Shown here: positions 10,301 to 58,816 of the stretch, piece by piece
Numbering within the stretch: position 1 is the stretch's first letter
Layout: each line of letters opens with the position of its first letter
Origin: an uncultured bacterium
Lineage (GTDB): Bacteria > Patescibacteriota > Gracilibacteria > Absconditabacterales > Absconditicoccaceae
Assembly (NCBI GenBank): GCA_947168815.1
Contig: CAMVNG010000002.1
Span: forward strand, 124,001 to 188,000
Length of the DNA stretch: 64,000 bases
Direction of reading: 5' to 3'
Made by a program: the position numbers and the translations under genes
The notes under the pieces: model-generated
The model's input: the letters and a program-made list of their open reading frames with translations, nothing else
Told to the model about the DNA's origin: nothing
The model's database searches: none

Positions 10301-13300
10301 AAAACTGAGCTTGTTCAAATATGAAATAAATTAGATTCAATACCCGAATTGCCAGGAAGAGAAGTATGAAGTTTCTGATGACGATATGAATCATGATCAA
10401 CAGAGCCTTTTAATTTTGATAATGTTTTAACTAAGAGTATAGCATTATATGGGGAATGGAACTGTTGAAATTGATATATGGATACAGGGAAGGATTGTAT
10501 TGAGTCTGTAATAATTTCGTTCGATACAAAATGAGGATCAGAAAAAAATAGTATAGAAGTTCCAAAATGAACAAAATTAAATGAAATTTCAGTAAAATAT
10601 TCCCATACAACAAATATTAGAGATGATTGAACTCTAATTAAGCCATATCCTGAGAAGGACTATACGACAAGTGATACAATAACAATACCGTGAGCAAAAG
10701 CATTGAATATGAAAATTATTTATCAGACATCTAATACAGATGCTCTATATGTATGACCTTGAAAATTTAATTATACAAATATGCCAAGTAGCACAATAAC
10801 GTTGGCATGATCTGATTATAATAATTGGAGGGATTGATATAAATATGTAGTATATACAAAAGTATTATGAGATTCTGTATCTTTTGTATTTAATAGTAGA
10901 CTTTGGGGTAGCTGATATGGATATTTTGCAGAAGTTTCATGAAATGCATTATATGATTTATGAGATAATCCTCTCAAAGAAAATTATAGTTTTGGAGGAT
11001 GGTATAAGGATAATAATCTTTTAGAGAAATTGGAAGATTCTAACTATGTTGCAAACGAAAACTTAACACTTTTTGCAAAATGGAATGAAACAAAAACTAC
11101 GACCTTTTTGCCATGATTGGAAGTTAATGAAAAAATAATTTCTTTAGCTTGAGATGCAAGCAATATAAAACAAATAGTACGTTCCGAAAGTAAAACAGAA
11201 TGAAATAGCTATAAACTATTATCAACAAGCGATTCTGAAGATATATTTGCATGGTATGATAAATGAACAATTTTCTATTATACTGAAGCTAATCACATAT
11301 ATTTAAATGAGGATTCTGAGTGAATGTTTAAGAATTTAAGTTCACTTTATTCAGTAGATATGGAAGGTCGAGATACAAGTAAAGTAACTGATATGAGCTA
11401 TATGTTTTCTGGTACTAATATTCAAAACATTGATTTGAATTTTTGGGACACAAGTAGTGTGACAGATATGAGCTATATGTTTGCAAGTGTAAAATCTAAA
11501 ACAATAAAGATAAATGAATGGAATACAAGTAGTGTGACAAATATGAGCCATATGTTTTATAACGCATCCAGTCTTACGAGCTTAAACATAGGAGAATGGG
11601 ACACAAGTAGTGTAGTAGATATGAGCTATATGTTTTATAATATATATAGAGCAGAATCACTAGATGTAAGTAATTGGGACACAAGTAGTGTGACAGATAT
11701 GAGCTATATGTTTTATTATTCGTTTAGCTTGAAATCATTAGATGTAAGCAATTGGGACACAAGTAGTGTGACAAATATGAGTTATATGTTTTATTCTCAG
11801 CAGCAATTACAATTATTAGATGTAAGTAATTGGGATACAAGCAAAGTAACAGATATGAGCTATATGTTCTATAATACATATAACTTACAAACACTAGATG
11901 TAAGTAAATGGGACACAAGTAATGTAATAAATATGAGCAATATGTTTCATTATGCAAGTAATATGCAATCATTAGATGTGAGCAAATGGGACACAAGTAG
12001 CGTAACAAACATGAGTGGTATGTTTTATAGTATGTCTAAACTAGCGTCATTAGATGTAAGTAATTGGGATACAAGTAAAGTAACAGATATGAGTTATATG
12101 TTCTATTATACGCATGATTTACAGTCATTAGATGTGAGTAATTGGGACACAAATAGTGTAAAAGATATGAATCATATGTTCCATGGTATGAATAATCTTA
12201 CAAGTTTAGATGTAAGTAAATGGGACACAAGTAAAGTAACAAATATGAGTTATTTGTTTGGTTCTCTAAGCAAATTAACGTCATTAGATGTTAGCAATTG
12301 GAATACAAGTAGTGTAACAGATATGAGCTATATGTTTTCAATGGGATGGGAATCTGATAATCATATAAGTCTAGAAGTGAGTAATTGGGATACAAGTAAA
12401 GTTACAAATATGAATGGTATGTTTTCTAGTCTAAATACAGATTATTTAGATTTAAACAGATGGGATACAAGTAATGTAACTGGAATGAGTAGTATATTTT
12501 CTAATACAAAACTAGAATCCTTAAATATTAATAATTGGAATGTTTCGAAAGTTAAAGATGCAAGTTATATGTTTAATAGTATAGAAATAGAAGAATTAGA
12601 TTTGAGTGGTTGGAATACCGAAAATATGGGAAAAATGTACGGTATGTTTACCGACACAAATATTGATAAATTAAATTTAAATTGATGGAATCTTAGTAAT
12701 TATAAGGATCCTTGGTGAGCAATGTTTTCTGAAGCTAAAATTGGAAATCTAAATGTAGACAATTGGATTATTTCAGAAAACACGGCATTAAACCAATTCT
12801 TTTCAAATATTGAAGTTGATACATTGGATTTAAGTACTTGGGATGTAAGTGGAGTAAATAATATGGAATGAATGTTTGGCAAGGCAAAAATAAAAGTACT
12901 AGATTTGAGCACTTGGGATACAAGTAATGTTACAAACATGAGAGGAATGTTCTCAGAATGTGAGCAGTTAACGACCATTTACGTAACAGATAGTTTTACA
13001 ACTAGTAATTTAAGCCAAGGAGATTATTATTGAGGTTATGAAATGTTTAATAATAACTGGCATATCGTTGGAGGAAACTGAACAGTATATGATCCAAATC
13101 GTGCTCATGATATTTATGCTAGAATAGATAGACCATGAGTGAAATGATATTTTACTGATAAAAATAATGTATATGTAAGCTTTTTAGTAAATTGAAACAT
13201 TTATACAACATCAAGAACTTCAACTTGATGAAAAATTCAAGAACCAGTTAATCCTAAAAGATCAAATAGCATTTTCTTATGATGGTATACAGATGAAGGT

Positions 13301-50748: not shown

Positions 50749-50779
50749 TTGATTTTATTGTAAATAAAACTAATATACT
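50749..50779 (+). promoter_or_regulatory. candidate promoter of the rplJ-rplL transcript
   Basis: TTGATT (50749-50754), 19-base spacer, TATACT (50774-50779). Initiation would fall at about 50786, exactly at the start of the L10 leader. Confidence 0.4.
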
Positions 50780-50785
50780 ATTATC

Positions 50786-50850
50786 TTTGCCGTAGACCGT
50801 AGGTCGTCTAGTAATAGATATAAACTGTTCCTACCGAGGTTATTCTTAAT
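50786..50850 (+). ncRNA. ribosomal protein L10 leader
   Basis: The segment GCCGTAGACCGTAGGTCG (50789-50806) and the downstream CCTACCGAGGT (50830-50840) match the well-known L10 leader: CCGTAGG and CCTACCG pair to form the stem carrying the kink-turn bound by L10 or the L10-L12 complex. It lies directly ahead of rplJ. In other bacteria this element represses rplJL when L10 is in excess. Confidence 0.85.
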
Positions 50851-50884
50851 ACTACTATGAATATCATATATTCATCAATTAGTG

Positions 50885-50912
50885 AATAACTCTGGCAATG
50901 AGTTATTTTTTA
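50885..50912 (+). terminator. terminator/attenuator between the L10 leader and rplJ
   Basis: AATAACTC (50885-50892) pairs with GAGTTATT (50900-50907) over a 7-base loop, followed by T-rich TTTTATTT. It lies 22 bases before the rplJ ATG, so it is placed to act as an attenuator controlled by the L10 leader. Confidence 0.7.
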
Positions 50913-50933
50913 TTTCCAGGTGTTACACTACTC

Positions 50934-52655: not shown

Positions 52656-53138
52656 ATGCAAGAAAATACTTATATGCCTAGTTCGTCCGAAAGAAAAAGA
52701 GCAATCGTTGCCTATCTTTTGATAGGATTGTTCTTTTTTTCGGGCAAAGAAGAGTTATCAGTTTATGAATACTTTCATTATAAACAAGCTATGGGTTGGT
52801 ATTGCACAACAATGATTCTTTTCTTAGCTTGGATTATATTGATTTGGATACCTGTATTAAAATGGTTACCATTCCTTTTTGTGTTGGCAAATTTGGTTAT
52901 TATGGTAATTTTTATTTATAAGGCATGGAAAGGGGAGTATTCAGCTAATCTTCTACAAAATGAAAAGTGGAAGACATTATATGCTGATGTTTGAGGATGG
53001 TTACTTTGACTCTTTGATATTAAAAAAAGAGTGTATTGAGATATTGCAACTGATACGTGAATTTCTCTTGATAATTTCGAGGAAATGAGTAATCTAGACC
53101 AAGAAATCTCACCAAATTTACCAGATAAGTTAGGTTAG
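52656..53138 (+). CDS. small membrane protein between rpsB and tsf
   Basis: A 160-residue protein that I do not recognise. Residues ~16-32 are weakly hydrophobic (AIVAYLLIGLFFFSG); two stronger helices follow (TTMILFLAWIILIWIPVLKW and PFLFVLANLVIMVIFIY). The remainder is a short acidic cytoplasmic tail ending LDQEISPNLPDKLG. Its GWLLGLFDIKKRVYGDI segment has UGA glycines, so in standard code it would appear truncated at 52994. It separates rpsB from tsf, which are adjacent in most bacteria. DUF4870- or DUF2207-like relationships are possible but not supported. Confidence 0.8.
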
Positions 53139-53229: not shown

Positions 53230-54024
53230 ATGAATATAGATATTAACTTAGTTAAGCAATTAAGAGATGCTACTTATGCACCATTAGGTGATTGTAAAAA
53301 TGCTCTTGTAGAAGCCGAAGGTGATCTTGAGAAGGCTCAAGAAATATTAAGACAAAAAGGTATCGCTAAAGCTGGTAAAAAGGCTGGTAGAGAAACAAAT
53401 GAATGATTAATTAAAGTTGCTCACAATAATGGAAGAACATATGTATTAAAACTTCTTTGTGAAACTGACTTCGTAGCTAAAAATGAAACATTCTTAGGAT
53501 TATTTGATAAAGTATTTGATGTTCTTAAAGATGTTGATGGTGAAGTTTCAAGCTTTGAAGAATTGGATGCTTCATTAGTTGAAAAAATTAATACTTTAGT
53601 TGCTGAAGCTGTTGGATCAATTGGAGAAAATATGAAAGTTGGTGGATTACACATCACTTCAGAAAATGCTTATGCATATTCTCATCCAGGTGACAAAGTA
53701 GTTTCATTAGTATACTATACTGGTGATGAAGCTGTTGCTAAAGAATTAGCTCTTCAAGTTGCTGCTCTTGATCCTGATTATCTTACATTCGATGAAGTTC
53801 CAGCTGAAGAAAAAGAAAAATTAAAGGCTGAATTTACTGAAGAATTAAAGAAACAAGGAAAACCTGAAAATATGATTGAAAATATCGTTAAAGGTAAAAT
53901 TAATAAAGCTTTCGCTGATGTTGTTCTTCTTGAACAAGAATACATTAGAGATGGAGCTAAGAAAGTTAAAGAAGTAATCCCTGCAGGATTTGAAATTAAA
54001 AAATTCTACAGATTTGCTATCTAA
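53230..54024 (+). CDS. tsf: elongation factor Ts
   Basis: A 264-residue nucleotide-exchange factor for EF-Tu. The UBA-like start [20 protein letters not shown] and [17 protein letters not shown] is followed by [20 protein letters not shown] and the key [16 protein letters not shown], which contacts EF-Tu. The dimerisation/C-terminal domains show [16 protein letters not shown] and [14 protein letters not shown]. One UGA glycine (NEGLI) splits the gene under the standard code. Length is typical. A strong hairpin lies just upstream, so it probably has its own transcript start. Confidence 0.95.
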
Positions 54025-54079: not shown

Positions 54080-54637
54080 ATGCAAAATTATGAATTAGTG
54101 TTATTGCTTAATGCAAACACTTCTGAAGCAGATAGAAAAGCATTCTTAGCTGATCTTGAAGCGAAATTCGAGGTAAAAGACAAAGATGAAATCGGAATTC
54201 AAAATCTTTGTTATAAACTCAAGGATAAGAATACAAAAGCTTATTTTGTATCATACTTATTAAACCTTACTCCTGCTCAAGTTAAGGAAGTTAGAAATTC
54301 ACTTCTTTATAACAATGCAGTTGTAAAATACGAAATCTATAAGATGGGTAATGATCAAGAATTCTTCCACTTTGAGAAATTACAACACGAATTTGATAAA
54401 GTGTTAGAAGATATTCAAGATAAGAAATACGGTCAAAAAATTGATTTCTTTGCAAACGCAAGAAATGCAAAATACATTAACTGGAAATCAATCCCAATCT
54501 TAAGATACTACCTTACAAGATTTGGAGATATTAAACCAAGACTCTATACTGGTAATTCTGTAAATACTCAGAAGAAAGTAAGGCAGGAAATTATTAGAGC
54601 AAGAACATTAGGATTGCTCAGCTTTATAAGCAGATAG
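54080..54637 (+). CDS. fused ribosomal proteins bS6-bS18
   Basis: A single 185-residue frame. Residues 1-~95 form a bS6 domain (MQNYELVLLLNANTSEADRK, LCYKLKDKNTKAYFVSYLL, LYNNAVVKYEIYK). Residues ~118-185 form a bS18 domain (FFANARNAKYINWKSIPILR, LTRFGDIKPRLYTGNSVN, QEIIRARTLGLLSFI). A charged helical linker (~95-117) joins them. bS6 and bS18 are separate proteins in nearly all bacteria, usually encoded as rpsF-ssb-rpsR, and bind each other on the 30S platform. Here ssb is gone and the partners are one chain. The bS18 Cys/zinc residues are absent. All six glycines are GGN. Confidence 0.92.
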   Translation: MQNYELVLLLNANTSEADRKAFLADLEAKFEVKDKDEIGIQNLCYKLKDKNTKAYFVSYLLNLTPAQVKEVRNSLLYNNAVVKYEIYKMGNDQEFFHFEKLQHEFDKVLEDIQDKKYGQKIDFFANARNAKYINWKSIPILRYYLTRFGDIKPRLYTGNSVNTQKKVRQEIIRARTLGLLSFISR

Positions 54638-54667: not shown

Positions 54668-54826
54668 ATGGCTAGTAAATTAAGAAGAATTAGAAAATAC
54701 CAGTGGGCTAAAAGAATTAGAACTCATGGATTCAGAGAAAGAATGAACTCATGGACTGGTAGAAGAATACTCGCTCGTAGAAGAGCAAAAGGAAGACATC
54801 AATTAACAGTACAAAGACAGAAATAA
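54668..54826 (+). CDS. rpmH: ribosomal protein bL34
   Basis: A 52-residue very basic 50S protein. [39 protein letters not shown] and RHQLTV match bL34. The normal partner rnpA is not downstream. The gene is 30 bases after the bS6-bS18 fusion. Glycines are GGN only. The stop codon falls inside a hairpin. Confidence 0.93.

Positions 54827-55015: not shown

Positions 55016-58816
<3,801 letters not shown>

Follow-up and report, generated by a model that had tools for sequence, protein, structure and literature searches.

In the bacterial 30S subunit, bS6 and bS18, encoded in the rpsF-ssb/priB-rpsR operon, form a heterodimer before binding to the S15-rRNA complex, S18 touching S6 with its N-terminal part (PMC4647458, PMC10931766). 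The C-terminus of S6 is also a modification site, glutamylated by RimK in E. coli (PMC10931766). The gene that we describe here encodes the same two domains in the same gene order and keeps the RNA-binding arginines, but as one covalent chain, with no ssb between them and with neither a free S6 C-terminus nor a free S18 N-terminus. Ribosomal proteins encoded within a fusion are familiar from eukaryotes, where the partner of eS31 and eL40 is ubiquitin, a non-ribosomal protein that is cut off (cf. PMC10296562). In the bS6-bS18 fusion, on the other hand, the two partners are both ribosomal proteins and neighbours in the subunit, without an evident cleavage signal. The nearest context is the streamlined translation apparatus of CPR/Patescibacteria, the phylum to which this locus belongs, whose reduced ribosomes are served by few biogenesis factors and have lost proteins, whereas here proteins are joined; the study in question makes no mention of bS6, bS18 or a fusion (PMC12641178).

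The window, that is, the whole stretch of 64,000 nucleotides that we analysed, comes from an uncultured member of the Absconditicoccaceae, in the SR1/Absconditabacteria line. Its first-pass annotation held that no stop separates a bS6-like from a bS18-like domain, and we confirmed a single open frame of 185 amino acids with no internal stop and no TGA codon (Table 1). The bS6-like domain was also said to be complete, and indeed each half matches its Pfam family over nearly the whole profile and above the cut-off; a C-terminal half failing to match PF01084 would have refuted the proposal, and this outcome is absent. The bS18 half also passed the NCBIfam S18 equivalog model TIGR00165 (41.3 bits for a cut-off of 38.75), and its best E-value to solved bS18 chains was 1.9e-8. 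The S6 half failed the corresponding S6 model, TIGR00166, with 29.2 bits for a cut-off of 42.9, residues 1-88 aligning to positions 1-92 of 95. With one model below its cut-off and the other above, divergence lies on the S6 side, and given its bS6 fold and its gene position we read this half as a diverged bS6.

Table 1. Coordinates in the window of the fusion gene, its parts and its neighbours
Feature	Coordinates	Strand	Basis
tsf (EF-Ts), upstream neighbour	53230..54024	+	PF00889 for 53563-54021; one TGA=Gly codon read through
rpsF-rpsR fusion gene (bS6-bS18)	54080..54637	+	ATG start, 185 codons and TAG stop
bS6 domain, residues 3-88	54086..54343	+	PF01250 (Ribosomal_S6), 35.6 bits, cut-off 27, profile 1-90 of 90 covered (Pfam); S6 fold (Foldseek)
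Junction, residues 93-129	54356..54466	+	Alignment with fused and unfused relatives; AF2 confidence
bS18 domain, residues 130-180	54467..54619	+	PF01084 (Ribosomal_S18), 47.3 bits, cut-off 21, profile 2-52 of 52 covered (Pfam)
rpmH (bL34), downstream neighbour	54668..54826	+	PF00468; operon order
rpoB, downstream neighbour	55058..58813	+	1252 residues to stop; many TGA=Gly codons

The fusion is real, conserved and present in single copy, and neither ribosomal protein has another source. A second outcome named as refuting, another rpsR gene elsewhere, is absent too: the source genome, of 1.29 Mb on 18 contigs and 99.7% complete, has one match to PF01084 and one to PF01250, both in the ORF at 54080-54637, and hence no separate copy of either gene. 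The ssb gene, although often located between rpsF and rpsR elsewhere, lies on another contig of this genome (G000:C4:49016). UGA is read as glycine in SR1/Absconditabacteria (PMC8080830), and rpoB of the window is open when TGA is translated in this way, with 24 TGA codons in the translated stretch. Because the fused frame lacks TGA, it is open under either code and does not depend on this reassignment; the fused frames of many relatives do need it. We detected no rpsF leader of the kind through which S6:S18 regulates its own synthesis: the 55-nt gap preceding the gene had no Rfam match (whether Rfam holds an rpsF-leader model was unchecked) and folded no better than shuffled sequences (z +1.6). 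Elsewhere in the window, a ribosomal protein L10 leader (RF00557, 47.9 bits) lies at 50772-50920, and an ORF of 112 amino acids with hydrophobic stretches and no Pfam match lies between rpsB and tsf (52656-52994).

We sampled 49 genomes of the family, 47 of which yielded a match. Species-level genomes with a full-length fusion in a single frame numbered 30 of these 47, including the closed chromosome CP006913.1 (RAAC1_SR1_1), while separate rpsF and rpsR genes were found in 16. Both genomes without a match fall in one genus, the rest of which carries the fusion. In the other fused genomes the PF01250 and PF01084 families were each found once, at the fused place, the exception being G058, in which S6 fell below the limit. 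Most of the records are metagenome assemblies, and an assembly or sequencing artefact, through a lost stop codon or a frame error, could be invoked on that ground. We rejected it on the breadth of the fused genomes and on the closed genome: 30 species-level genomes from many samples share the fusion, no separate copies exist and, as detailed below, the junction is under selection, which leaves the artefact with practically no chance of being correct. The remaining genome of the 47, G064, stands alone among the fused relatives in having a frameshift in its junction (G064:C181, about 11615-11714, in an A-rich stretch); a sequence error is the probable cause, although a genuine reversion to two frames cannot be ruled out.

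The order tsf - rpsF/rpsR - rpmH - rpoB was found in the 40 loci that we read, a few of them cut by contig ends. Five unfused siblings (G006, G007, G017, G021 and G054) carry rpsF-ssb-rpsR, and ten others (G008, G010-G014, G019 and G049-G051) carry rpsF-rpsR without ssb in between. In G010 and G019 the separate rpsF and rpsR share one frame, with a stop codon and a short gap between them, an arrangement that plausibly represents a pre-fusion stage. These gene orders at one operon position suggest that ssb was lost and that joining followed. In a rooted quick tree, the genomes with ssb between the two genes branch first, although long branches leave only modest confidence. On this basis we infer that the loss of ssb would have put rpsF beside rpsR, and that losing the rpsF stop and the rpsR start would then have made the former C-terminal tail of S6 continuous with the former N-terminal arm of S18, with no extra linker. 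In an RpoB tree, 20 fused rows form one clade with support of 100/99. Membership of G009 in this main clade was not rejected (AU p 0.20), and it may belong there. On the other hand, uniting all 22 fused rows, among them the isolated relative G048, in a single clade was rejected (AU p 2.5e-8), which means that either G048 fused separately or siblings split again. Re-splitting seems the less likely of the two, since both a stop and a start would have to arise anew.

The junction is built from the old S6 C-terminal helix (residues 98-112), a short hinge and the old S18 N-terminal arm, with the joint near residue 118. From the S6 helix to the 'WK' of S18 we counted 38-39 residues in the fusions, compared with 40-61 when the two tails are added up in each of eight unfused siblings, implying an end-to-end join with no added linker. 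The strongly acidic S6 tails present in some siblings are missing from the fusion, and near residue 118 the motif K-K-x-G-(Q/N)-K-x-x-F-F replaces the start of unfused S18 (for example MKKTFF). Junction length is constant across the main clade. Pooled pN/pS, obtained from simple counts over pairs that are not fully independent, was 0.25 for the junction (residues 93-131), 0.23 for S6 and 0.19 for S18. Over 27 fusions, residues 93-131 contain no conserved in-frame start codon (ATG, GTG or TTG). Taken together, the constant length, the lack of a conserved in-frame start and the low pN/pS indicate that the junction is translated and under purifying selection.

The same data bear on the possibility that free bS18 is also made from a translation start inside the gene, so that the fusion would be only partial. 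The one fusion that lends it support is that of G009 (G009:C5:2534-3097), which has retained the ATG of the old S18 start in frame (MKKKLTLF); it is possibly an intermediate that could still make free bS18. Moreover, no obvious ribosome-binding site precedes the start at 54080, so such a motif cannot serve to exclude starts elsewhere. Within the window gene the only internal starts are a GTG at residue 108 and, within the S6 domain, an ATG at residue 89, and with no start codon conserved across the junctions of the 27 fusions we regard this explanation as very improbable.

AF2 prediction from 12 fusions gave a mean pLDDT of 89.6 and a pTM of 0.85, with the helix at 98-112 and an S6 half in the strand/helix order E-H-E-E-H-E that Foldseek matched to S6 chains (for example 1g1x_A, TMt 0.81). 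The pTM suggests that the two halves are held in a defined arrangement in the model; a fit to the 30S platform remains an inference, as neither PAE nor coordinates were available. Confidence was lower at the C-terminus and at residues 111-120 (62), the only drop within the junction. This weak point at the hinge, together with the good conservation of the basic motif KK-x-G(Q/N)K located there, would suit the view that the fusion is only a precursor, cut by a protease near residue 118 to give the ribosome two proteins, as happens with ubiquitin-ribosomal protein fusions. Yet most of this motif goes back to the N-terminal end of unfused S18 (MKKK-xFF) and can be explained without cleavage, no known dedicated protease is implied, and other fusion lines have different junction sequences. 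We therefore consider processing of this kind unlikely, and favour a chain that stays in one piece.

Functional residues of S18 are retained. According to our own alignment, R173 and R175, invariant in the 12 fusions, correspond to R61 and R63 of E. coli S18, and the equally invariant K136 corresponds to K24; in E. coli, R61/R63 form the RNA-binding site and K24 lies at the S6 interface (PMC4647458). The absence of Cys ligands from the bS18 part had been put forward as a further peculiarity. There is indeed no Cys in residues 118-185, but this is nothing special: the eight unfused bS18 of the family that we read have no Cys pair either, and its absence is hence not linked to the fusion.

Fusions also occur outside the family. 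G236, of family f21, encodes one of 198 amino acids with both Pfam domains above cut-off, and its siblings G235 and G238 have separate genes. In family f41, which belongs to another class, five of the six genomes examined carry the fusion as an open frame of 201-213 amino acids, checked with Pfam in one of them (L105), and no separate rpsF or rpsR was found in these five genomes. AF2 on the f41 fusions, with four rows only, was uninformative on geometry (mean pLDDT 61, pTM 0.54, S18 half unmodelled). The f41 and G236 junctions differ in sequence from the junction in the window, and the neighbouring genes that we read differ as well, with L105 lying beside a RimK/LysX-like ligase and tgt, and G236 beside mutL. 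These differences support separate origins, and although there is no tree of the whole phylum, the fusion is probably convergent within it. A broader proposal counts at least four origins in Patescibacteria (the main Absconditabacteria clade, G048, G236 of f21 and the f41 class) and sees in each a unit of assembly whose halves are tethered for good, by which cells poor in ribosome biogenesis factors solve heterodimer assembly covalently; we lean towards it only slightly. Upstream of the L105 fusion we also noted the RimK/LysX-like ATP-grasp ligase itself (L105:414-1253; PF08443, LysX_preATP_grasp) and a 61-amino-acid acidic protein resembling LysW, without Pfam match (L105:48-233); for this neighbourhood, LysX/LysW lysine synthesis is more likely than a RimK link to S6.

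In the absence of protein, ribosome or expression data, the most likely inference is that the chain, left uncut, serves on the 30S platform as an S6:S18 heterodimer tethered in advance. The chain is presumed to stay uncleaved, proteolysis at the hinge not being excluded. It would fold as an intramolecular S6:S18 heterodimer, the S6 C-terminal helix linked to the S18 arm holding the partners together and supplying them 1:1, and an intramolecular association would replace the bimolecular one. The tethered pair may then dock as a unit on the central domain of 16S rRNA. Fixed 1:1 stoichiometry, which the first-pass annotation had proposed, follows if the chain is uncleaved; its suggestion that heterodimer assembly is bypassed can reasonably be inferred from what is known of S6:S18 pairing, but is untested. 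We hold with considerable confidence the complete account, that of a genuine rpsF-rpsR fusion, sole source of both proteins, that arose by ssb loss and end-to-end joining and works uncleaved as an intramolecular heterodimer on the 30S platform, with the cleavage state, folding, docking and order of events all inferred.

The fusion is apparently undescribed: an earlier report was not found in the literature searched, which was limited to open-licence papers, and protein databases such as InterPro or UniProt may already list the PF01250+PF01084 architecture automatically. Natural fusions of two mutually touching ribosomal proteins seem to be rare. The present one indicates that living cells can have S6 and S18 covalently linked, and provides a convenient way to test to what extent assembly of the 30S platform is limited by heterodimer formation. 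It also removes two modification sites, the S6 C-terminus and the S18 N-terminus, and offers a phylogenetic marker whose intermediate gene orders are preserved in sister genera. Finally, its apparently repeated origin among the tiny cells of one phylum suggests that fusion is favoured, by selection or by gene order, and the S6:S18 region of the ribosome seems to tolerate, and perhaps to favour, a permanent link.
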